From positions 1-23,989 of IMG/VR virus record IMGVR_UViG_3300028388_005076: a stretch of DNA of 23,989 bases; one strand, given 5' to 3'. This DNA comes from a virus. Below, piece after piece: positions 4,554 through 23,989 of the stretch (within the stretch, counting starts at the first letter, position 1; each line of letters starts with the position of its first letter). The translations under genes and the position numbers were made by a program. The notes below the pieces were generated by a model, which had not been told where the DNA came from, ran no database searches, and saw nothing but the letters and a program-made list of their open reading frames with translations.

Positions 4554-5123
4554 ATGTATCTTTTTAGAATTCGCAAAAATCAGGACCTCAACGAAGACTT
4601 TCCAGAGCTCAATGACATACCAGCGTTTAAGGAGGTTTTAAAAAAGTCTAAAGGCCAAGACTACATTAAGATCTTAGCATTTTATTGTGATTGGGAGTCT
4701 CCATTTCGTCAGTTCAAAAATGATGAAGATCGATTAAGCCAAATCACTAAGACCTTTTTCAATAAAAAGACTGATTCGTTTTATAAGACCAAGACCTGGA
4801 AGAACGCGGTCCAAATGTATTTTTTCTTACAGAAAGACCCGGACCGAATGCTTTACAACAGTCTTCAAAAATATTATGAGAAGATTGTAACCAGCATTGA
4901 AGAACTGTCAGGTAAAAAGCATGATGATTTAGAATCAGAGTTAGCGGACATGGATAAAGTATATCAGTTCAACAAAAAGGCTATTAGCCTTAAAAGTCAA
5001 ATTGACGAGTTGAAAGACCGTATTGAAAACAGTCAAACCCTGATCAATAAGAAAATTTTGGATAAACTTTGCTATCTTGAAAAACGTCAGTACCGGTTAA
5101 AGGTGCTGAATGAATCACTTTAA
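4554..5123 (+). CDS. Unknown phage protein with C-terminal coiled coil (possible small terminase)
   Basis: This 189-residue protein has an N-terminal helical region and a Lys/Glu-rich coiled coil from about residue 105 to 180. In the N-terminal part the pattern D-x-x-SPF-R-x-F-x-N-D-E-D-R (near residues 46-60) stands out. I have a general impression of such a 'SP[FY]R..[DE]..R' segment in phage proteins encoded close to terminases, but cannot confirm it here. Small terminase subunits usually sit just upstream of TerL and combine a small N-terminal helical domain with an oligomerising coiled coil, so this gene or the next is the best candidate. That assignment is inference from position and architecture only. 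Confidence 0.65.
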   Translation: MYLFRIRKNQDLNEDFPELNDIPAFKEVLKKSKGQDYIKILAFYCDWESPFRQFKNDEDRLSQITKTFFNKKTDSFYKTKTWKNAVQMYFFLQKDPDRMLYNSLQKYYEKIVTSIEELSGKKHDDLESELADMDKVYQFNKKAISLKSQIDELKDRIENSQTLINKKILDKLCYLEKRQYRLKVLNESL

Positions 5124-9819: not shown

Positions 9820-10800
9820 ATGGCAAAACAAGAGTTTGATGTAAAGTCCTTTTTAGGCGATGAAAGTGGTAGCTCCAGTAATGAAGGAGGTACCAATGAA
9901 GGTGGATCTGCTAATCAAGGTGACGCTGGTGGTGAAAAATCTAAAGGCCAAGGTGACCAAGGCAGTGAAAGTGGCGAAGGCGATGATGATGATTATTCAT
10001 TAGAAGCTCTGAACCAAGAAAGCGAGCCTGAAAATCAAGATCTTTTAGAAGCAATTAAGAAAGAAGGCTACAAGCCCGGTGATGATCTTAAAAGCTATTT
10101 GGAGAAGTTGAATTTATCCAAAGAAGCGCGAAACCAAGTATTGCTTCCAGAAGGCGTTGATGAAAATGGTTTAAGCAATGAAAATAAAGCGGCCATTAAA
10201 CGAATTGAAACGCTACTTGATGATAACCAAACATCAATGGAAGAGCGCATTCGTAAAGCTCTTGAATTTGAGTATAAAAATCGTTTGAGTGAAGAAGACC
10301 TGGAAGCGCACATTGAAGAAATCTTATCCGACCCAGTCAAAAGAGTTTCTTATGACGATAATATTCTAAAGGCTCTTCGCAACCAAGAAACTCAAATTCG
10401 GCAGAATGCTAAAGAAGCGCTTGTTCAATTTCGCCAAAAACACGAAGCAGCTAAAAAGAAAAGGCAAGAAGCGTTGTATAATAGCCGTCAATTATTTGGC
10501 AGCACGTTAAAGCCAGAAGTTCTTCGAGATATTGATTCCAAAATTGCCAGTGGTGATTTCTCAAAAGAGTTAGCTGATCCAGCCAATGAAGCTAAGCTTG
10601 CTCTATTGTGGTATCATCAGGAGATGATCGCTGACGTTTTTTCTCAACCGAACCATTTGGATGGTCTTGAGGAAGGCAAAAAGCAATTCTTTTTAAGGAC
10701 TACCAATTCCCAAGTTTCTAAAAGTGGGGTGGCTGGTCAAAAAAGCACCTCTAAACAAGGCAAAGGATTTGATGTCCAAGCCTTCATTAGCGACGATTAG
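9820..10800 (+). CDS. Putative capsid scaffold protein
   Basis: This gene lies between portal and major capsid protein, the usual place for a scaffold that guides shell assembly and then leaves. The 326-residue product is acidic and Ser/Gly/Asn-rich over residues 13-75, then strongly helical with charged coiled-coil segments (about 95-285), and ends in a flexible basic stretch. Both ends carry nearly the same motif: FDVKSFLGDE (6-15) and FDVQAFISDD (317-326). Scaffolds often bind capsid protein through a short terminal element, so this duplicated motif may be the docking site; that is inference. No protease domain is seen. The gene is followed by a 99-base leader with a large hairpin before the capsid gene. 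Confidence 0.65.
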   Translation: MAKQEFDVKSFLGDESGSSSNEGGTNEGGSANQGDAGGEKSKGQGDQGSESGEGDDDDYSLEALNQESEPENQDLLEAIKKEGYKPGDDLKSYLEKLNLSKEARNQVLLPEGVDENGLSNENKAAIKRIETLLDDNQTSMEERIRKALEFEYKNRLSEEDLEAHIEEILSDPVKRVSYDDNILKALRNQETQIRQNAKEALVQFRQKHEAAKKKRQEALYNSRQLFGSTLKPEVLRDIDSKIASGDFSKELADPANEAKLALLWYHQEMIADVFSQPNHLDGLEEGKKQFFLRTTNSQVSKSGVAGQKSTSKQGKGFDVQAFISDD

Positions 10801-10824
10801 TACTTTATTAGCATTCCAGCCAAT

Positions 10825-10898
10825 GTAGCATAGAATGAAACAAAGACTAATGTCACTTAACGGTTGCCTTAGTTTTTGTTTCATTTTTAATATGCTAC
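10825..10898 (+). promoter_or_regulatory. Large two-part hairpin directly before the major capsid gene
   Basis: An inner 17-bp stem pairs AATGAAACAAAGACTAA (10834-10850) with TTAGTTTTTGTTTCATT (10869-10885), with one G-T wobble and an 18-base loop. An outer 8-bp stem pairs GTAGCATA (10825-10832) with TATGCTAC (10891-10898). One unpaired base on the left and five on the right separate the stems. The outer stem closes one base before the capsid ATG at 10900. It could be an attenuating terminator, an RNase processing site or an RNA-stabilising 5' hairpin. Its long loop sets it apart from the three ordinary terminators in this window. Confidence 0.7.
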
Positions 10899-10899
10899 T

Positions 10900-12456
10900 A
10901 TGTCAGTTAAAATATCAAAAGGCAAGTATCAGGAAGGCGTAACAACCGAGGAAAACTCCTTAACCGCCAACCTAAATAAATACCCGGAAATCATGCGCCG
11001 GGTTGTTGATCTCCACCCCAAATATTCTGTAACCTGGCTCTTTGAAAAATTAGGCCGTTTTGATGGTTCTACTGAAATCAAAGACAACTCTTTTGAGTAC
11101 CGCCAACGCGGTCGCTTAGACAAGCCTTGGGTTGCAGCGGGTATTTTTAAAGCAGCTTCTGGTTACACGCCTCAAAATATGGCTACTGGAACCACCACTG
11201 CTGCTTCAAATTCCAGTGCTACTGTAAAAGAAACCATTAACACCATGATTTGGCTTGGTGCCTATCATGACCCTGACAATGACATCTACGCCAGTTTTAT
11301 CCATGGTAACGGATTAGTTCGTTTCCAATCTGGAGCTGCTGGTATTATCGTTAAGCGTGTTGATGAGAGTGTCACTCAAAACGGTAAAGCTGTTCATTCG
11401 GTATTAGTTAAAGTAATCTATGGAACTATTCTTCAAAGCGACGTTGCTGAAAATCAAATTATCGGTTTGACTGGTAACGCATTTGGTGAAGATTCTGATG
11501 GTGGTTACGATAACAGTATCTATGAGCACCTTCGTAGAGGATGGGTTTCTACTTTCCGTCGTAAAAAAGGTATTACTGGTGACGCTTTCACCAATGTATC
11601 CTGGATGGAATATGAAGGTCAACGTCTATGGTACTTTGAACAAGAGTACATTATGGAGCAATTAATCGCTATTGAAGTAGAGCGTAAGCTTCGCTACTCT
11701 CGTCGTTCAATGGGTGTATTAGACCAAACAAGCCCACAATTAGGACACCCCGGAGCCGATAACCTTTACCCTGGTGGTAGTGCGGCCAATGACCTAACTT
11801 GGGATAGCGCTGATCCTAAAAACAGCAAACCACCTGTTATTGGTGATGGTTTAGAAGCTCAGATTTCTGAGAAAAATGAATCAACCTATAACATTAACGG
11901 TGGATTGACTGCTACCGATCTGTTAGACTACATGGCCCGTTTAGGTGACGAGTCTCCAGAAGGTTCTACCGGTAACGAGTGGGTAGTGTTAGCCTCTACT
12001 TTAGGTCGTCGTAATATCCACAACGCTTTAAAAGAGGAAGCAAGCGGCACCAACGGTGGTACTCTGTTTAACATTGATTCGGGCAAAGACTACGCATTAG
12101 GCAGCAACTTTACTACTTATGAAATTATGGGTAATAAAATGGTTGTAATGCACGATGATGTTCTCGGTGACCCTCACTTGCACAACCGTGCAAATCAGTA
12201 TGGGTTAAAAGGATCTGGTGATCTTTGGTTCCTTGACATGAGTGTTCGTAACGGTGAGCCTAACATTTCTCTTCTTAGCAAGCAGAAACGTTCTTACATC
12301 AAAAAGTACATACCAGGTATGGTTGATCCAATGGACCCATCCAGTATGAAAGCAGCTCACGCTGGCGATCGTTTTGACGTGGAATGGTTAGGTTCTAACG
12401 GTGTTAAATTAGCAAATGAGTATACTTCTGGTATTATCAAAGGTGTAAGCCTGTAA
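10900..12456 (+). CDS. Major capsid protein (probable HK97 fold)
   Basis: This gene encodes the main shell protein. At 518 residues and directly following the portal and scaffold genes, it matches the expected place and size in crAss-like phages. The composition (Gly, Ser, Asn and aromatic residues spread evenly, no coiled coil, no signal peptide) fits a shell protein. The N-terminal 25 residues are polar and extended, as for an N-arm. A long helix candidate lies near residues 250-268 (EYIMEQLIAIEVERKLRYS), where the spine helix of the fold could be. A Gly/Asn-rich stretch at about 278-325 may be a surface insertion. The fold is inferred from context, not shown. Translation starts one base after the large hairpin at 10825-10898. 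Confidence 0.85.
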   Translation: MSVKISKGKYQEGVTTEENSLTANLNKYPEIMRRVVDLHPKYSVTWLFEKLGRFDGSTEIKDNSFEYRQRGRLDKPWVAAGIFKAASGYTPQNMATGTTTAASNSSATVKETINTMIWLGAYHDPDNDIYASFIHGNGLVRFQSGAAGIIVKRVDESVTQNGKAVHSVLVKVIYGTILQSDVAENQIIGLTGNAFGEDSDGGYDNSIYEHLRRGWVSTFRRKKGITGDAFTNVSWMEYEGQRLWYFEQEYIMEQLIAIEVERKLRYSRRSMGVLDQTSPQLGHPGADNLYPGGSAANDLTWDSADPKNSKPPVIGDGLEAQISEKNESTYNINGGLTATDLLDYMARLGDESPEGSTGNEWVVLASTLGRRNIHNALKEEASGTNGGTLFNIDSGKDYALGSNFTTYEIMGNKMVVMHDDVLGDPHLHNRANQYGLKGSGDLWFLDMSVRNGEPNISLLSKQKRSYIKKYIPGMVDPMDPSSMKAAHAGDRFDVEWLGSNGVKLANEYTSGIIKGVSL

Positions 12457-13595: not shown

Positions 13596-14177
13596 ATGAT
13601 TGCATCAGAAGCTTTTGATTTCATGGACCTAATGTTAGACAAGACAGGTTCAGCCAGTATTGAAACTTTAGAAAAACAAAAATTCATTATTGAAGCAGTT
13701 GAAGAATTGCTGAAAACTGAACGTAAGCGTTTAGGAAATCATCAAGCGGATACTGATAAAATCAGAACCCTTTACGACAATGAAATATTAACATCTCAAA
13801 ATGGTACCGGAGCCTATGCTGATTTTGCTTCGGTACGTTTTTCAAATGACACTAAATTTGTGTTGGGAGTTAAAACCACTGACCATTTTTTAAAGCCCCG
13901 GAGTTTAAAAGACATCTGGGGCTTATCTGGTCAGGGCTATGCTTCATTCTGTTATGTTGGAGAAAGTAAAATATACGCTTTACAAAAGCATAGCAGTTCA
14001 AGGTGGTTTGTCTTAAGAATCAAAAAACCAACTTATGACTGGACTAACAGCAATGATTTTGTGAATTTACCAGAGGAAACTCAACGTGATGTTTTGAAAA
14101 AAGCAGTTCGTTTAGCTTCTGCAGCTACAGAAGACCCCAGGTACCCAATTTATAATAACGAAGAACAAGAGTCATGA
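13596..14177 (+). CDS. Putative connector or tail-ring protein
   Basis: This 193-residue protein has an N-terminal helical part (about 1-55) and a strand-rich body with many Gly, Tyr and Phe residues (about 65-165, including SVRFSNDTKFVLGVKTTDHF). A short Arg/Ala helix and an acidic tail follow. Helix plus beta-sandwich is the layout of many head-tail connector proteins, and the gene sits where ring proteins are found in crAss-like phages, between capsid and muzzle genes. The next gene overlaps its stop as ATGA (4 bases). The assignment is by position and appearance; no diagnostic motif is visible. Confidence 0.65.
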   Translation: MIASEAFDFMDLMLDKTGSASIETLEKQKFIIEAVEELLKTERKRLGNHQADTDKIRTLYDNEILTSQNGTGAYADFASVRFSNDTKFVLGVKTTDHFLKPRSLKDIWGLSGQGYASFCYVGESKIYALQKHSSSRWFVLRIKKPTYDWTNSNDFVNLPEETQRDVLKKAVRLASAATEDPRYPIYNNEEQES

Positions 14178-15043: not shown

Positions 15044-15537
15044 TGGGTAACCACGCACGAGTATATACTTTGAAAGATTTAGTAGAGAATGGCATTTACG
15101 AGAACATGAAAATTCGTAATGCCAAAAAGACTAAAGTCAAAGAACTTACTCCGCGTTTAATTAGATCTATCCTTTGGACTTATCTAAAAATGAAAATACT
15201 TCAAGCTCTTAAGACTGGTCTTCCAATTAAGACCCCATTTGGTATATTCTGTTGGAGCCGAAGAAAGTCAAGGAGACCAGATCAAGTAATTGTGCATGAT
15301 AAAGGAGTAGAGATTATTCAAAAGAGAGACGAATACAGCCGTTCTCTGGCCCTTAAAATCATTCGCAATGATGATAAGTACCGGGTGCACTACGAACGGT
15401 CTATGAGAACTTATTTGAAAGAGTTTTTAGATAGTGGCCATGATATTCCTTATCGCAATATTAAGCGCCATGGAAAAGAGTTGTTGAAAATTGAAAATTA
15501 TCGCAGAGGCGGGAAATATTACACTAACAAAATTTGA
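15043..15537 (+). CDS. IHF/HU-like DNA-binding protein of the tail block
   Basis: Residues about 35-82 resemble half of an HU/IHF fold: a helical stretch (RLIRSILWTYLKMKILQAL) followed by LPIKTPFGIFCWSRRKSRRP. There FGIF (66-69) and the next Arg-rich strand match the conserved G-x-F-x-x-R region leading into the DNA-binding arm. Arg and Lys dominate the rest. An IHF-subunit-like gene within the tail block is a known hallmark of crAss-like phages. At 164 residues it is longer than HU (about 90), with a basic C-terminal extension of some 80 residues. It may bend or package DNA near the portal, or act as a regulator; its placement between ring and adaptor genes favours a virion or assembly role. 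The TAATG overlap couples it to the gene before. Confidence 0.65.
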   Translation: MGNHARVYTLKDLVENGIYENMKIRNAKKTKVKELTPRLIRSILWTYLKMKILQALKTGLPIKTPFGIFCWSRRKSRRPDQVIVHDKGVEIIQKRDEYSRSLALKIIRNDDKYRVHYERSMRTYLKEFLDSGHDIPYRNIKRHGKELLKIENYRRGGKYYTNKI

Positions 15538-16196: not shown

Positions 16197-16224
16197 TAAA
16201 TAGTTCGTTATTATCAAGCAAAAG

Positions 16225-16252
16225 AAAAGCCTCTATAACAGAGGCTTTTTTT
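16225..16252 (+). terminator. Rho-independent terminator before the muzzle-type gene
   Basis: AAAAGCCTCT (16225-16234) pairs perfectly with AGAGGCTTTT (16240-16249) around the five-base loop ATAAC, and a T-tract runs to 16252. It closes the connector and tail-adaptor unit and implies that the muzzle-type gene has its own promoter or depends on read-through. Confidence 0.92.
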
Positions 16253-16280: not shown

Positions 16281-19200
16281 ATGAAAAAGTGGACCGGCAT
16301 TAATCGATTCTTTAAAGGTCAACAACCTGATTTATCTCCTGAACTACAAAGTGAAAATTCTTATACCGAATTAAGGAATGGTCGTTTAATTGATGATGGT
16401 GAAGAAAATCAAAGTGTCCAAAACTTTAAAGGTGACGTGAACGCTATTGCACATGAAAACCTCAATGGCACCAGTGATATAATTGAATTTAGAGAAGCCA
16501 ATTCTTTGTCAAAGGGCAATGCGGTAAACTTTACAATGACGATTGCTTTTGACAACGAAAGTTTTACCGTAGATTTTGACTTTGTATATGAAGATGAATT
16601 ACTGGCTTATGAAGAAATAGCTAAAGCTATTGAAGCAGCATTAGACACTGATTCTAAAAAAAGGCTTAAGGTGGCCTATAACAACACAAAAGTTGTCATT
16701 TGGTACAATCAGCCGGAAGGAGTAAATGATGCCGTTACGCTTGACGCTACTTACTCCTTTACGGGTTTAATCAAGCGTAAAAGATTTACTTCTCGGTCTA
16801 ACTACCGAATCATTAAAAGTGTAGAGTTGCCAAATGAGCTCATTATAGTAGCTATTGCCAATGAAGGGCATTTAGATGTACCAGAAGCTTCAGCAACTAT
16901 TACCCCAGGAGGGGGCGGTGTTGGTTTTGGAGATTTAGCGAGTAGTTTTCAAACGGTATACAACACACCTACTGAGGCTAACATTGTAGCTATTTGGTCT
17001 ATTGAAGTTGATTACAATGGGTATTGGGTTGGTCAAACCTTGAAGTACTGCGATATCCTTAATTACAAGCTGAATAAAATACTTGATGTAGAAAGCAGTT
17101 TTGAAAATGAAAAGATTAGCAAGCTTTATTTAACTGATGGCTACAATCCTTTTTCGTCTATCAATTTGCATGACCCTAATTTAATGGCCATTGATCCATC
17201 AGATTTAGAAGTCTTTCCAGAGGTAAAATTTTCAGCTCCAATTCTAAAAAAGATAACCGATAGTGGTCGTTTGCCGGTTTGCACCATTCAATATGGTTAC
17301 ACGCTGATAAGTCAGAACGGAGCCAGCAGCGTATTATCTCCGATTAGTCAAATCATACCTATTGGTAATTATCAGTCAGGAGAACATACCAAAGGTGGTA
17401 CCAGTGATGAAATTACTTCAAAAGCAATAACTATTGAAATTTCTGATGTAGACACTGACTTCAATCGTATTAGAATTTACGCCTTATACTCAATTGGTGG
17501 TCGAGCTATAGATCGAGTGGAAATAATATCTGAGCAAGAGATTACCAGCTCAGTAATAGAAGTAGTCCATACTGGAACAGAAAGGGCCATAGAAGTGCCC
17601 TATGAAAGTTTACTGTCCAGCAATAACGGGTTCAAATATGCTAAGCATGTAGAAAGCGCGGAAAATAGATTGTTTGCAGCCAACTTAAATGTAGATACTC
17701 CAAACCTGGACAACTGGAATACAATTGTAAAGTCGGCCAATTATATTGGTGAAGTCTATGAATCTAAATACAACCCGGACCCAACGGCCTATATGTATTT
17801 GCCAAGTCAAAAGACTAATGGTTTTGACAGCAATAGCCAAAGAATATTTGGTGGGAAAACTCCAGGATATAATTCTGGAAACGGTGTTCAGGTCACTTTT
17901 GTGGTAAAAGAAATACCTATTGAAGACTACAGCATTGGTGAAGTTGCTGATATTTATAATACCAGCTTTAAAGGAAATTGGGATGCCAATACCGGGTATT
18001 TAAACCGAGAGTTAGTTTTTCACAATGGTCGATATTGGAAAGCTATTCGAGATAACAATAATGTTGAGCCTAACTATTCTAACGATTTAGATTGGAGCCC
18101 AAATAATTTTTATGAAACTGTTTCTAAGTTCAATTTTGGGATAGGTACTAACTCTGAAATTACTGAGTACTTAGAATACTACCCAAAAAACAAATCGCCT
18201 TTATATTACGGTAATGACAAAGCTAATTTTAACAGCCCGCACTTTCACCATCGGTTAGCTGGTTACATGCCAGGTGATGTTATTAGATTAGGTTTACTTC
18301 CAAGAGATAATCAAGGAAATGCTATGTTCGTAAAGTACATTGGTGATTTAAAGGTGCCTGACTTTAACAATGCCTATTACAAACTCAACCATCTTTCAGA
18401 CAATCATAATGATCTGGGAATTAGCAACAATTATTTCACCAGAGATTTTCGGCCTTTTGTAACTAAAGAAGTCAATGGAATAGCAGTTACTTATGCTCGA
18501 GTCGTTTTACTTGACATTTCAGTATGTATACCTAAAGAAATTCGAGAGCAATTATCAGGTTATGAAATTGTTCGATCAGTAATTACTGAAAATGATAAAA
18601 CTGTTTTAGGAGTTGGACCTTTATGGCAAACTAACTATTACAGTAATGCCGGACTAAATTTAAGTAGCAACAATAGTCAGGGTAAACCGGGTAACATGAA
18701 TGAAGTCCACGGTAATTCAGTATTTCCCCATGAGCAAATGGACATTGTTATTAATAGACCGCCTGTACCAAATAGAACATTGTTTACAGTTGATGTGGTT
18801 GACGCAATGGCTAAGCTTCGTGATTTTAACAGTGAACAAAATTTAGAAATGAAATTTGTTCAAGAACTACCACTCCATGGGGGACAACTAATTAGAAACA
18901 TCAATAATTCTAACACGGGTGAAAATCATTTGGGTTATATGCATAGTTTTAGTGCTGGACCTATTGTAAGCATGAACTCTGCTCATCCTACAAAAAACAC
19001 CCCGGTTAATTTATTGAGAACAGTTAATGTTGATGTTAATGAGTTAGTTCCGAAACAAATCATTAAGTCACCAAGCACCGATTATCGAAACAGCGCTATG
19101 CGTAATTTAAACCCATCAGCTCAAAGTGCTGCTGGTATTAATAAGTTAGAAAACAATCCAAGCTTATTAATAAGAACAAAAGAGGATTTTGATTTAGGAT

Positions 19201-20159
19201 TAGATAGAAGTGGAATGCTTACTTCTTTAGTAGCTATAAAACGCAAAAACCATACACCTTATGGTGGAGCTAATGAATTTGCAATAAAAAGCACTCAATG
19301 GATTTCATGCGGTCACTACACTCGAATTACGAGCCCTAAACACGCGCATATTGTAGGTGGTGGAGACACTTATTGGGGAATGCATGTATATAGCAAAGAT
19401 TATCAAGAAAACACTTGGCAAAGACCAAGTTTAAGAACAAGCATGCACGGTGTAAATCTTCCAACTTTAGGTAATTTTAATTGGAATTTTATGCACGGAA
19501 TAAAAGCTTTTGATAGCAGCTATAGGTTTCAAGTAAAAGAAAGCTTTGAAATTAACCCGGTTTACTTAAAAGACAACCGATATCGGGTCTTTGTTAGTGA
19601 TAACGAAAATTTCAGCAATCAACGGGCTCAACCTTACATGATATCGGTTTCGCCTCAAAAGATTAATGGGGCCTTAATTGACCAATGGTTAAAGTTTCCA
19701 GTTTTTGACCAATACGAAATGCCAAATAAGTTTGACGCTATTACTGATTTGGTTTCAGTTAATGATAAACTGTATGTGGTCCAAGGCAGAGCCGTGTCCT
19801 TATTGGCTATTGACCCTAAAGCTTTAATTCAAGCAGAAGAAACTGACATTTTAATTGGTAACGGAACGGGCCGGGTAATAGCTGATCATCAAGTCATAGG
19901 CTATCATGGTTCTTATCACAAATCTTCTATTGTAAAATTCAATGAAGGCTTTGTGTTTTTGGATAGCATTAACAGGGCCTTAATTATGGTTGTTGGTAAT
20001 CAAATGATTAATTTGTCAGAGCAAAAGAATCATCAAGACTATTTTAGAAAACTTTTCGATTCTATAAAACACGACAAGCCATTAGCCGGAAAAGGTTTTG
20101 CAGGGTACATTGACCCCGTGTATAATGAAATCGTTTTAACAATTATTGAGCAGTCATGA
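16281..20159 (+). CDS. Muzzle / tail stabilization-type protein
   Basis: At 1292 residues this is the largest complete gene. Its N-terminus (SYTELRNGRLIDDGEENQSV, about 27-46) has the 'RNGRL...G....V.N.KG' look of phage tail stabilization (P22 gp10-like) proteins, and its size and place after the ring genes match the muzzle protein that closes the tail tube in crAss-like phages. The body is strand-rich and Asn/Gly/Tyr-rich, as in a beta-propeller-like or repeated beta structure; the last 150 residues (YEMPNKFDAITDLVSVNDKL onward) resemble propeller blades. A separate module at about 565-607 (W567, G572-Y573, G583-R-Y585, P597, W605) looks like a small carbohydrate-binding domain, possibly an insertion. 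The stop overlaps the next ATG by four bases (ATGA). Confidence 0.75.
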   Translation: MKKWTGINRFFKGQQPDLSPELQSENSYTELRNGRLIDDGEENQSVQNFKGDVNAIAHENLNGTSDIIEFREANSLSKGNAVNFTMTIAFDNESFTVDFDFVYEDELLAYEEIAKAIEAALDTDSKKRLKVAYNNTKVVIWYNQPEGVNDAVTLDATYSFTGLIKRKRFTSRSNYRIIKSVELPNELIIVAIANEGHLDVPEASATITPGGGGVGFGDLASSFQTVYNTPTEANIVAIWSIEVDYNGYWVGQTLKYCDILNYKLNKILDVESSFENEKISKLYLTDGYNPFSSINLHDPNLMAIDPSDLEVFPEVKFSAPILKKITDSGRLPVCTIQYGYTLISQNGASSVLSPISQIIPIGNYQSGEHTKGGTSDEITSKAITIEISDVDTDFNRIRIYALYSIGGRAIDRVEIISEQEITSSVIEVVHTGTERAIEVPYESLLSSNNGFKYAKHVESAENRLFAANLNVDTPNLDNWNTIVKSANYIGEVYESKYNPDPTAYMYLPSQKTNGFDSNSQRIFGGKTPGYNSGNGVQVTFVVKEIPIEDYSIGEVADIYNTSFKGNWDANTGYLNRELVFHNGRYWKAIRDNNNVEPNYSNDLDWSPNNFYETVSKFNFGIGTNSEITEYLEYYPKNKSPLYYGNDKANFNSPHFHHRLAGYMPGDVIRLGLLPRDNQGNAMFVKYIGDLKVPDFNNAYYKLNHLSDNHNDLGISNNYFTRDFRPFVTKEVNGIAVTYARVVLLDISVCIPKEIREQLSGYEIVRSVITENDKTVLGVGPLWQTNYYSNAGLNLSSNNSQGKPGNMNEVHGNSVFPHEQMDIVINRPPVPNRTLFTVDVVDAMAKLRDFNSEQNLEMKFVQELPLHGGQLIRNINNSNTGENHLGYMHSFSAGPIVSMNSAHPTKNTPVNLLRTVNVDVNELVPKQIIKSPSTDYRNSAMRNLNPSAQSAAGINKLENNPSLLIRTKEDFDLGLDRSGMLTSLVAIKRKNHTPYGGANEFAIKSTQWISCGHYTRITSPKHAHIVGGGDTYWGMHVYSKDYQENTWQRPSLRTSMHGVNLPTLGNFNWNFMHGIKAFDSSYRFQVKESFEINPVYLKDNRYRVFVSDNENFSNQRAQPYMISVSPQKINGALIDQWLKFPVFDQYEMPNKFDAITDLVSVNDKLYVVQGRAVSLLAIDPKALIQAEETDILIGNGTGRVIADHQVIGYHGSYHKSSIVKFNEGFVFLDSINRALIMVVGNQMINLSEQKNHQDYFRKLFDSIKHDKPLAGKGFAGYIDPVYNEIVLTIIEQS

Positions 20160-21559
20160 GCCTATTTGATTCAGATGTAGCAATACTATGGTTAGAAGAC
20201 ACTCCGCAAACTTTCAATCAAGGTGATAAAATCTTAGTCGAAGGTGTAGGGTATTTTGTAGCTAAAATTGACATTGAAGGTGACGTTAAGCCTAACTTGA
20301 ATTCTGAGTTTTTTTATAAGGCTCATGGCTTAGAGCCTGAAGAACCAGTAAATGAAATTCCTGGACTTTATCAAAATGACCAGTATTACACTTGGGGCGA
20401 AATTGCTAAAGACAGCAATAACCAAGTATACATTAGTCGGCTTTACAGAAATTACGCCAATGGCTTAAATGATGGCACGGCCTGGAAAAGAAGATTTGAC
20501 TTAGATCAAGAAGCAACCATTAGCCCTTCAACAGCAGAAAATGCAATTGAATATGATAAAACCAAAAGTTATTTTGCAGGAACCTTAGTTCAAAAAAGCT
20601 ATAGCGAATTTGCTACAGCATTAAAGGATGTTCCTCCAGGGGTTACTCCTTATCTTAAAAATAAGGATTATTGGTTACTTCAAACTAAAGAAGAGGGTAG
20701 GCCAATGATAAGCCCTATTGAATACAGCAATGTTCTTTACAATCCTGATCTTCCAATAAGAGCCGGTCATAACAAAATATTTGATGAAAGCGGTTATGCA
20801 GCAATTCCAATTAATGACTCGTTAGGAGCCGATTTAAAAGACCATCGATTTTTTAAGCGTACTTCTCCTGTTAACCCTGAAACTGAAATTGACAATCTTA
20901 AAAGAGAATTTAACGGAAGTCCAGTAAATGCAGGTGAATTAGTGGATTATAATGGATTTGTTTTTCAGGCTTTAAAAGACACTGACAAACCACCGGTCAA
21001 TAAAAGTCCAGAATACAGCTTAATTAAACCAAGTGAAACGCCAGCTGAAACTGTAACAGAGCCAGTAATTACGGGTGAAAGTATTGTAATCAATAGGCAG
21101 GGTACTATTATTGGATATAGAGATTTAGTCAGTACATGGTACGGTAATTTCAAATCTCATGTATACAGTGTAAAAAACCGAATGATTCCAAGGCTTCATA
21201 ATGTAGGTGAATTACAAAGTGCTCATGACAATCATTTGATCTTTAAGCTCAAGTTTATCATTAATTTCAAAAACCTAATTAAGATCCTCGATTACATTCG
21301 TATTATTGGCTACACCATTTTGAGATTTACAACAATTCGATATAGCAGCAATTTCAGCAACGAACAAGTTGTCAATGACACGCATACAGAGCGCTATAAA
21401 ATGATTGAAGGAGAGCATGAAGTAGCTGCGAGAGAAAGAGAAGCCAGTGGGCGTATAAGAGGCAATTACGCTGAGGTTACTATTGAAGACGCCAAAACTT
21501 CTCAAAAGCAGAATATCAAAATCAATTCAGTTAAACATCTTTCAAGAAACAGTCACTAA
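20156..21559 (+). CDS. Modular adhesin-like virion protein with five carbohydrate-binding-type repeats
   Basis: This 467-residue protein contains five degenerate modules of about 36-45 residues: roughly 18-57, 70-112, 131-175, 199-235 and 253-290. Each follows the pattern of CBM5/12-like sugar-binding domains: x-G-x-hydrophobic, a turn with G or N, aromatic-x-A or similar, a Pro- or Gly-containing loop, and a closing aromatic pair. Examples are FNQGDKILVEG-GYFVA, VNAGELVDYNGFVFQA and AGTLVQ. A Thr/Glu/Pro linker (about 291-306) leads to a C-terminal region with strand-like and hydrophobic stretches (FIINFKNLIKILDYIRIIGY at 368-387) and a charged end. It overlaps the muzzle-type gene by four bases. 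A receptor-binding or capsule-binding role is inferred from the modules; the family is not confirmed. Confidence 0.6.
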   Translation: MSLFDSDVAILWLEDTPQTFNQGDKILVEGVGYFVAKIDIEGDVKPNLNSEFFYKAHGLEPEEPVNEIPGLYQNDQYYTWGEIAKDSNNQVYISRLYRNYANGLNDGTAWKRRFDLDQEATISPSTAENAIEYDKTKSYFAGTLVQKSYSEFATALKDVPPGVTPYLKNKDYWLLQTKEEGRPMISPIEYSNVLYNPDLPIRAGHNKIFDESGYAAIPINDSLGADLKDHRFFKRTSPVNPETEIDNLKREFNGSPVNAGELVDYNGFVFQALKDTDKPPVNKSPEYSLIKPSETPAETVTEPVITGESIVINRQGTIIGYRDLVSTWYGNFKSHVYSVKNRMIPRLHNVGELQSAHDNHLIFKLKFIINFKNLIKILDYIRIIGYTILRFTTIRYSSNFSNEQVVNDTHTERYKMIEGEHEVAAREREASGRIRGNYAEVTIEDAKTSQKQNIKINSVKHLSRNSH

Positions 21560-21561
21560 TT

Positions 21562-22116
21562 ATGTACTACGGACCCAATGAAACTTATGACCCGGTAACA
21601 GGTGAGCTTCAAATAGAGCTTGAAAAAATAATTTCAAAAATTGAAGAACAGTACGCAACAGTACCGGCCAAAAAAATAGAAATTGTCAAAGCTGAACCTA
21701 AGACTTTAGATCAAACCAAGGCGAATCAAAAAAAGCACATGGCTCGTGAAGAAGTACGAACAGACAATCTTCCTAAAAGTGATAGTTCTGATGCCGGGGG
21801 GATAGCCGGAATGATTGGGAGCCGTTTGGATGATATGGCTCAAGGTTACCTGGGAGCCGGAACAGCATTAGCTGAAAACTTAGCAAACCCAAACAGTGAC
21901 GGCCATGAAAATTTAGGAACGATGATTGACATGGGGGCAAGTATTGCGGGAAGCATGGGACCGGCTGGTGCTCTCGTTGGTGGCTTAGCTAAAATCGGAT
22001 ATAGCATAGCTGACAATAAACGCGAAGAACAAAGGGCCCGAAATAGGAAAAAACGCAAGCAAGAAAAAGAGCTTGCTGAATTAAGAAATTCTCAAATCGC
22101 TAAATTCGGATTGTAA
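21562..22116 (+). CDS. Gly/Ala-rich protein, candidate ejected membrane-active protein
   Basis: This 184-residue protein has a charged N-terminal half and then a Gly/Ala/Met-rich amphipathic stretch at about 79-150 (GGIAGMIGSRLDDMAQGYLG and SIAGSMGPAGALVGGLAKIG). A strongly basic segment follows (about 153-165, NKREEQRARNRKKRK) with a short helical tail. Small Gly/Ala-rich proteins encoded next to large internal virion proteins are often ejected with the DNA and insert into the host membrane, as with gp14 of T7. That role is inferred here from composition and from the lysozyme-bearing gene that starts in its stop codon (TAATG). No signal peptide is present. Confidence 0.65.
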   Translation: MYYGPNETYDPVTGELQIELEKIISKIEEQYATVPAKKIEIVKAEPKTLDQTKANQKKHMAREEVRTDNLPKSDSSDAGGIAGMIGSRLDDMAQGYLGAGTALAENLANPNSDGHENLGTMIDMGASIAGSMGPAGALVGGLAKIGYSIADNKREEQRARNRKKRKQEKELAELRNSQIAKFGL

Positions 22117-23989
22117 TGCCAGAAAAAAAATCAAAATTAGTTTTCAATCCTTCCAAAGAAGAATTGTTTTTGCTTCAGTTACTTATGGAGAAAGAAGCAA
22201 AAGGCTATAACCACAGGTATGCTTTAGGGCGAAATGACGCCACATTTGATAGTTATGAAAAGCATCCAAAGATTGCAGAAAAAATTCCTGATTCCGATTT
22301 GTTAAGTACTGCGGCTGGCGCTTATCAGTTTGTTTATAAGACTTGGAAAGAACAACAAGACAAATACGGATACCCTGATTTTAGTCCGGCCAGTCAAGAC
22401 ATGGCGGCTTTAAATTATCTGCGAGATTCCTACGACGGAGACCTTACGGCTGATCTTAAAGCTGGAAAAATATTAGAAATTGGACATGCTTTACAAAGCA
22501 GATGGGAGAGCTTACCAGGTGGTGAAAAAAGCCTTTGGTCAGATGAAGATTTTGTGGAGTCATATAATGGATTGCTTAACGGCACATGGGCCCCGTCAAA
22601 CATTATATACACATTAGACAAAGAGAATTATAAAACTGTTGGAGACACTCGACCACCTATCCCTAAAACTTCTCCTGATGGTAATGGGGGAGCTGGTTAT
22701 ATCGAAACAAGTTTAAAAGCCAACAAAAGGAAGCTGGTTGATTTAAGCAAAAAAGAGAGAGACGAATTACAAAAAACAAGTGTAGAGTTTCGCAAATACC
22801 GTAATGAGCTTAAAGAAAAACGTGCTACCGATCCAGATTATGGATTTAACGATTACAAAGATGACATCAATAGTTTCTTAGAAGCAAATCCTTTGGCTTT
22901 AGAGTTTTCTGATGTAGTTGGTGGCAATGTTAGAGAAACTGATGAAGCTTTTAAACTCAAAACAAAACAAGAAAAAGAGTATGAAGCATTAGAGAAGATT
23001 GAACAAAAACATAAAAAAGCTTCTGATGAAATTCTTCTTTTGATGGAAGAAAAAGGAGGTCTTTCTGGTAAAGGATTAGAAGGATTTGAGCAAAAAGTTG
23101 ATAAAGCAGCAGAAGACTTTTTTAAAATAGATCTTGAGTTTACTGCAGCTAAAAGAAAAGCAATTGCAACTGAAATGCAATATTATCAAGCTATTGCTGA
23201 TAACAGTGAAGAATACACAGCAGCTGAAAGGCGTATTGCTATTCAAAAAGTAAAGGCTTTAAAAAAGTATGATGAAAAGTTTTATCAGAATGTTAAAGAT
23301 TATGTCTTCAACAAAGGGAGAATAAGAAATCTTATTGACTGGAATGATCAATCTATATTTCAAGAAGAAGTAACAAAAAGAACAAGCGATGTTAGTAATC
23401 ACACTGAAATTCTTTCTAAAGATGGAGAACCTGTTGATATAGATGTAGATGAACATTATGACAACGACCCTTCCTTAGCTTTTCTACAAGAAAAAACCAA
23501 GAAATCAGAACAGGAAGATATAGAGCAAATTCAAATTGAAATTCAGGAAACTCAACAGGTTATTGATGATGCCAGTCAAACAATTAAAGACGGTGCTGAA
23601 TATGTTCAAGCTGAAACAAATCGGCAAAACGCAATAAAGCGAGAAAACACAAAGGATAACCCACAAGACCCAGATAAGCCTGATCTTGATGATGAAAATA
23701 CAGATGAAGAAGGTGAAAGCGCTGAAGAAGCGTTAGGTGAATTAGACGAGCGTCCTGGTTACACCATGGGTAAACAAACCCTATGGGAAAAAATGGGTGG
23801 CTCAGATGGCGCTGCTGCTTTTGGAATGGCTATTACAGCCGCGGCACAAGGCGATCAAGACCCAGGTGACATTGAGTTACCAAGGGTAGATGAAATGACC
23901 TTAAACCACGCAAATACGCTTAAAGAGATTTCTCAAATGGGATTAACCCCTGCTGAAGAAGCTGGTTTAAGAGCCGATATAGGCCGTTC
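22116..23989 (+). CDS. Large virion protein with N-terminal lambda-R-like lysozyme domain (partial)
   Basis: The frame runs open from ATG 22116 to the right edge (624 codons seen). Residues about 15-135 match the phage lambda endolysin R family (GH104 transglycosylases): E27 aligns with the lambda catalytic Glu19, F-x-x-Y-x-x-HP is at 44-51, STAAGAYQF at 64-72, and PDFSPASQDMAAL at 87-99, with a later SLPGG. The usual AGRYQ Arg is Ala (A69). After a Pro/Gly linker come long charged coiled coils (about 205-395 and 450-515), an Asp/Glu-rich stretch, and then MGGSDGAAAFGMAITAAAQG, which looks membrane-active. This architecture and place fit an ejected cargo protein that opens the host cell wall during infection rather than a lysis endolysin. 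No holin or spanin is seen beside it. Confidence 0.85.
   Translation, partial: MPEKKSKLVFNPSKEELFLLQLLMEKEAKGYNHRYALGRNDATFDSYEKHPKIAEKIPDSDLLSTAAGAYQFVYKTWKEQQDKYGYPDFSPASQDMAALNYLRDSYDGDLTADLKAGKILEIGHALQSRWESLPGGEKSLWSDEDFVESYNGLLNGTWAPSNIIYTLDKENYKTVGDTRPPIPKTSPDGNGGAGYIETSLKANKRKLVDLSKKERDELQKTSVEFRKYRNELKEKRATDPDYGFNDYKDDINSFLEANPLALEFSDVVGGNVRETDEAFKLKTKQEKEYEALEKIEQKHKKASDEILLLMEEKGGLSGKGLEGFEQKVDKAAEDFFKIDLEFTAAKRKAIATEMQYYQAIADNSEEYTAAERRIAIQKVKALKKYDEKFYQNVKDYVFNKGRIRNLIDWNDQSIFQEEVTKRTSDVSNHTEILSKDGEPVDIDVDEHYDNDPSLAFLQEKTKKSEQEDIEQIQIEIQETQQVIDDASQTIKDGAEYVQAETNRQNAIKRENTKDNPQDPDKPDLDDENTDEEGESAEEALGELDERPGYTMGKQTLWEKMGGSDGAAAFGMAITAAAQGDQDPGDIELPRVDEMTLNHANTLKEISQMGLTPAEEAGLRADIGR

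Follow-up and report, generated by a model that had tools for sequence, protein, structure and literature searches.

Gene content of the locus

The window analyzed here, that is, the whole stretch of DNA under study, is the entire IMG/VR record IMGVR_UViG_3300028388_005076 (23,989 bases), which is probably a fragment. It carries a structural gene block of a crass-like (Crassvirales-type) phage, with a portal ORF (PHROG portal match, 9e-59), a major capsid protein (Pfam Crass_capsid, 1.8e-11) and two ring-protein-like ORFs whose Pfam matches are sub-threshold. In this window the muzzle protein appears to be encoded by two genes that share an ATGA start/stop overlap, with about 300 residues added at the cut (Table 1). 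The downstream gene, P0001, is a single plus-strand ORF with exactly the limits given in the first-pass annotation, and only two short ORFs of 62 and 76 aa lie opposite it on the other strand. A consensus search of the plus strand found no terminator-like hairpin between muzzle part 1 and P0001.

P0001 is followed by a glycine-zipper protein that is possibly a membrane-inserting ejection (cargo) protein. The next ORF (22116-23989) runs off the contig end. It has an N-terminal muramidase-like pattern (SAAGAYQFVYKTWKEQQ...FSPASQDMAALNYL) and no Pfam match, and possibly encodes an ejection protein with a cell-wall-degrading domain.

Table 1. Features of the split muzzle locus, in window coordinates.
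Feature	Positions	Strand	Evidence
Terminator-like hairpin 5' of the muzzle gene	16222..16252	+	Consensus match only
Muzzle part 1 (1292 aa), from the N-terminus almost to the end of the beta-propeller	16281..20159	+	Pfam, phmmer, lengths of relatives
CBM5/12-like module in muzzle part 1, residues 563-612	17967..18116	+	Similarity to L002, Pfam sub-threshold, insertion versus relatives
ATGA start/stop overlap dividing the muzzle coding sequence	20156..20159	+	Sequence
P0001, 467 aa: inserted module region, then muzzle C-terminus (muzzle part 2)	20156..21559	+	ORF list, C-terminus profiles
First-pass repeat 1, residues 14-58, CBM5/12-like by eye only	20195..20329	+	Background fraction 0.37
First-pass repeat 2, residues 69-116, unsupported	20360..20503	+	Background fraction 0.22
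Repeat 3, residues 131-178, CBM5/12-like, supported	20546..20689	+	6.5 bits, background fraction 0.0036
First-pass repeat 4, residues 193-240, unsupported on its own	20732..20875	+	Background fraction 0.30
Repeat 5, residues 246-294, CBM5/12-like, best supported in P0001	20891..21037	+	9.7 bits, background fraction 0/2,528
Muzzle C-terminus, P0001 residues 310-467: last propeller strands and C-terminal beta domain	21083..21556	+	Profiles, model fit to gp44
Glycine-zipper protein, 184 aa	21562..22116	+	Relatives directly 3' of the intact muzzle in L031 and L035 (phmmer 5.4e-4 and 3.8e-4)

The upstream gene encodes a muzzle protein that ends early

In phage PhicrAss001, the muzzle forms a hexamer that acts as gatekeeper at the tail tip (PMC10172136). 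The upstream ORF matches the Pfam family crAss_MUZ (PF25731) at 9.3e-88 and the PhicrAss001 muzzle gp44 (7qok_A) at 9e-14 by phmmer, in an alignment that ends at gp44 residue 1193 of 1371. We gathered muzzle loci from 15 named phages and 80 from IMG/VR, and later more from the nearest clade. Of 63 distinct ORFs that include the region where the window muzzle ends, 61 extend past it, and the two exceptions are truncated by contig ends. The further residues past this common point number 134-291 in 51 IMG/VR muzzles (mostly about 170-190) and mostly 178-189 in the nearest clade, where one muzzle has 131. Muzzle part 1 ends about 170 aa earlier than its intact relatives.

The muzzle set also yielded some observations on individual relatives. 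The muzzles of L083, L071 and L019 have longer tails (236-291 aa) past the point at which the window ORF stops, and possibly carry more insertions there. Read with table 11, the muzzle genes of three Suoliviridae phages (L007, L013 and L017) have 12 to 21 in-frame stops, which is consistent with stop-codon reassignment. Finally, the muzzle gene of L064 (3018-6895) is broken near 4949-4985, a different place from the break in the window, through either a frameshift error or a second split.

The last third of P0001 corresponds to the missing muzzle end

We built a profile of the C-terminus from 60 muzzles and searched it against all window ORFs. Two of them match. Part 1 covers columns 14-95, the match running to its last codons. 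P0001 covers columns 110-263 with residues about 318-459 (E-value 3.5e-6), and the next ORF is at 0.11. The hhalign score of P0001 against this profile is 32.6, and the best of 100 P0001 shuffles reaches 20.9. With a profile of 16 members of the nearest clade, P0001 (residues about 392-462, E 1.9e-7) is the sole window ORF above chance; hhalign gives 34.7 here, whereas 200 shuffles reach at most 24.6 and reversed P0001 scores 15.7. These larger sets supersede an earlier hhalign comparison with 14 muzzles only, which was weak (23.7 versus 21.4 in shuffles).

Searches with P0001 as a single sequence point to the same region. Its sole match among 47 related virus records is the C-terminus of the L018 muzzle ORF, where P0001 residues 390-454 pair with residues about 1463-1526 of 1538. 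In a second set of relatives, the weak single-sequence matches are mainly muzzle C-termini (L128, L113, L119, L116 and L117). No P0001 relative was found in phage records (tblastn) or in IMG/VR, nothing was found when near relatives were sought with the capsid and terminase-position proteins as bait, and the comparison of solved structures with P0001 and with a six-module profile gave chance matches only.

A model of P0001 residues 302-467, for which the alignment included 36 muzzle C-termini, has a pLDDT of 68.6 and a pTM of 0.58. Its only PDB matches below 1e-3 are two gp44 chains. VIA-align superimposes it on gp44 residues 1213-1371 with a Z-score of 10.2 and an rmsd of 2.2 Å over 106 residues, and the next best superpositions, at Z 6.8 and 6.6, involve chains of virions or tails from other phages. 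Weaker matches (Z 5-6.4) to CBM32, netrin, furin and similar proteins were taken as common beta-sandwich arrangements and rejected as structural relatives. Since the model alignment itself contains muzzle proteins, the gp44 match is support for the assignment and not an independent proof of it.

Gene order agrees with the profiles. L031 and L035 each have an intact muzzle gene whose stop overlaps the start of the next gene, and the glycine-zipper part of that gene matches the 184-aa ORF 3' of P0001. P0001 therefore has no separate place in the gene order of those relatives, and is a muzzle end plus an insert. Judged from profiles and model together, the last third of P0001 (about residues 310-467) is the part absent from muzzle part 1. 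The homology of both muzzle parts is solid; the split, known from one metagenomic contig, is less so, and the same holds for the number of modules and for their function.

The cut lies in a turn of the propeller

The relatives have a strand near window residue 1290 (pattern NEVxFTI) that leads through a short turn into a strand with the pattern LxYNE. In the window this turn holds the stop and the ATGA as well as about 300 residues. The cut sits in a hairpin of the last propeller blade. Phage cr272_1 (L013) has about 20 extra residues in the same turn, which suggests that the turn tolerates insertions. By the usual strand order in a propeller blade it should be the B-C turn. In gp44, immunoglobulin-like domain 1 is borne on the face of the D-A connections (PMC10172136). 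The B-C turn would share that face, which would place the modules on the outer face of the muzzle.

The junction between the two genes

In the relatives the muzzle is one polypeptide; here it is divided between two ORFs with an ATGA overlap in one contig, and none of about 80 relatives has a split muzzle with an insert. The appropriate label is thus 'split muzzle', not 'typical muzzle'. A second ATGA-style junction is present in the window at 14174-14177, and another pair of genes overlaps by 4 bases at 15534-15537. Nine bases 5' of the P0001 ATG, its frame has a stop, the TGA at 20147-20149. In the approximately 10 bases where a shift must fall, we found neither a homopolymer nor a canonical slippery heptamer. 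Because the TGA closes the frame and the heptamer is absent, termination-reinitiation at the ATGA is preferred, and a programmed -1 frameshift is disfavored. Readthrough of the muzzle stop would not lead into the P0001 frame.

CBM5/12-like modules in the insert

The first-pass annotation had described five sugar-binding-type modules in P0001 and had proposed a profile search with each of them. We used a profile of 13 phage CBM5/12-like modules, drawn from tail fibers, minor tail proteins, tail-tubular-B proteins, one ring-protein-like ORF and others; it includes the window's own muzzle module, so that the test slightly favors the window. P0001 residues 1-305 score 9.3 bits against this profile, and the best of 200 shuffles scores 5.2. 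Set against 2,528 windows (52 aa each, from relatives) as background, repeats 3 and 5 score distinctly higher, and repeats 1, 2 and 4 do not (Table 1). Leave-one-out rescoring places repeat 5 at 12.1 bits, with repeats 1, 2 and 4 still at background. In pairwise comparisons, similarity is seen between repeats 1 and 4 (z 3.4) and between repeat 5 and the muzzle module (z 4.3), but the majority of pairs score no better than chance.

No repeat reaches the Pfam CBM_5_12 cut-off of 26.2 bits, and the whole of P0001 attains 12.3 bits at best; because of these scores, we term the modules CBM5/12-like and not CBM5/12. The closing aromatic is Tyr or Phe, not Trp, in some repeats, which makes for a weaker case for a canonical binding face. 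Single-sequence AlphaFold2 on whole P0001 was uninformative (pLDDT 30), and an alignment that mixed module rows with muzzle C-termini was set aside as the module rows were misplaced. By its sequence, the insert holds at least two CBM5/12-like modules; perhaps they number five.

A further module in muzzle part 1

A sixth module, at muzzle residues 563-612, is clearer than those in P0001. It scores 18.6 bits with Pfam CBM_5_12, against the cut-off of 26.2, and its best segment is 54% identical in a tail-fiber-like ORF of L002. The module is an insertion relative to the muzzles of L018, L020, L031 and L035. Given its absence from these four near relatives and its likeness to L002, the window muzzle has likely gained modules at two places. 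A search of IMG/VR with the muzzle module returned only the L002 contig again. No CBM5/12 domain was found at Pfam level in other muzzles across 47 records, and the 13-module profile found no modules in the muzzle ORFs of relatives.

Repeats 3 and 5 and the muzzle module resemble other phage CBM5/12-like modules above chance. The phage modules of this type that we found are mostly in tail fibers, minor tail proteins and, in two T7-like phages, proteins at the tail-tubular-B position. Two other records deserve mention. A ring-protein-like ORF of another crass-like record (L101, 1111-1998) contains a CBM5/12-like module (YNPSTTYQLNQIVFYNDQFYQSLRNNNSEIPENTDYWKVIDG); modules of this kind may enter several tail proteins. 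On the minus strand of L100, a 196-aa ORF (1315-1905) contains two modules that pass the Pfam CBM_5_12 threshold, at 39.8 and 29.4 bits, and the same record also holds a muzzle gene (G047).

Comparison with known systems

The closest characterized counterpart is gp44 of the Bacteroides phage PhicrAss001 (PDB 7qok and 7qol; PMC10172136), with which both window parts align in order. Sequence identity with the window muzzle is low (about 20%). Moreover, gp44 is encoded by one gene whereas the window uses two, and the window adds about 300 aa in a hairpin of the last blade as well as the earlier module.

A tail-tip protein with a CBM5/12-like module is also found in T7-like phages, in the tail tubular protein B, or nozzle, of Alcaligenes phage Piluca (QYW02392) and Escherichia phage vB_EcoM_APEC (QMP81509), one of which is annotated with a chitin-binding-type domain. 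These nozzles differ from the window in that one module was found, at a different position in the protein, in an unsplit gene and in a different phage group. The closest match to the muzzle module (FKGNWDANT...HNG) lies in the tail-fiber-like protein of IMGVR_UViG_3300026518_000062 (L002, ORF 9872-11281) which, unlike the protein that hosts the module in the window, is not a muzzle. The CBM5/12 family itself (Pfam PF02839) comprises domains of about 45 aa with the pattern aromatic-x-x-G-(D/E)-x-V ... G-x-x-Y/F-x-A ... P ... W/Y. This pattern is recognizable in two repeats and the muzzle module, but the window modules score below the cut-off and have some of the aromatics replaced.

Possible role of the split muzzle

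We consider it fairly likely that the locus encodes a split, two-gene muzzle that is co-assembled and whose CBM5/12-like modules most likely bind host surface polysaccharide. Two adjacent, translationally coupled genes would produce a muzzle homologous to gp44, both chains co-assembling in the hexamer. Each muzzle would then carry six copies of the insert and one module per part 1 chain, giving many copies on the tail tip. Presumably exposed on the outer face, the modules would most likely bind host surface polysaccharide, and this binding might anchor the tail tip ahead of gate opening. Glycan binding is predicted here by analogy with other phage modules, and the host-range role that the first-pass annotation put forward is likewise putative. 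In the view suggested by the authors of the PhicrAss001 structure, the outer part of the muzzle makes contact with the cell, and insertions in it alter its surface (PMC10172136). A stronger form of this proposal is more doubtful: that the muzzle truly consists of two chains, with the propeller completed in trans and the cut hosting a multivalent glycan-binding array, which would couple surface binding mechanically to the opening of the gate.

The reading least compatible with the data is that of the first-pass annotation, in which P0001 stands beside the tail as a multivalent adhesin in its own right and carries five CBM5/12 modules. P0001 is indeed a separate ORF with module-like repeats, and the annotation was right to see such repeats in a virion protein; multivalent binding is plausible through the two supported modules. 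It misjudged the identity of the protein, however, having missed both the muzzle C-terminus in P0001 and the better module at muzzle residues 563-612. Residues 310-467 are the muzzle end that the upstream ORF lacks, nearby relatives have no gene at the P0001 position, and the modules sit on the ejection machine, joined to part of the tail-tip gatekeeper, and not on a binder next to the tail. We regard a free-standing adhesin as very improbable. A more serious competitor, although still less probable than polysaccharide binding, is that the 300-residue insert serves as a structural spacer or as a surface for protein-protein contacts, such as the docking of tail fibers, with no sugar binding. 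Tyr or Phe in place of the closing Trp in some repeats fits such a role, as does the fact that three of the five repeats are unrecognizable as CBM5/12; on the other hand, the modules against which two of the repeats and the muzzle module score come mostly from phage tail fibers and nozzles, one of them annotated as chitin-binding type.

The muzzle could be continuous, with a module insert, and the break at 20150-20159 could be a sequencing or assembly error or an unrecognized frameshift. The two frames differ by one base, the split is known from a single contig, relatives with a complete muzzle end have a single ORF there, and the break in the L064 muzzle gene could itself be an error. We nevertheless find this explanation unlikely, as the junction is precisely an ATGA overlap, of a style found at another gene border in the window, and the zone of about 10 bases available for a shift has neither a homopolymer nor a canonical slippery heptamer. 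The insert and the identity of the C-terminus hold whether the split is real or an error.

The assignment to the muzzle accounts for a protein left without relatives by ordinary sequence searches. The locus suggests that a muzzle gene can be cut inside the propeller and presumably still work. Host recognition at the tail tip of crass-like phages is poorly known, and a muzzle that appears to have gained CBM5/12-like modules at two places would give a direct test of host polysaccharide binding.
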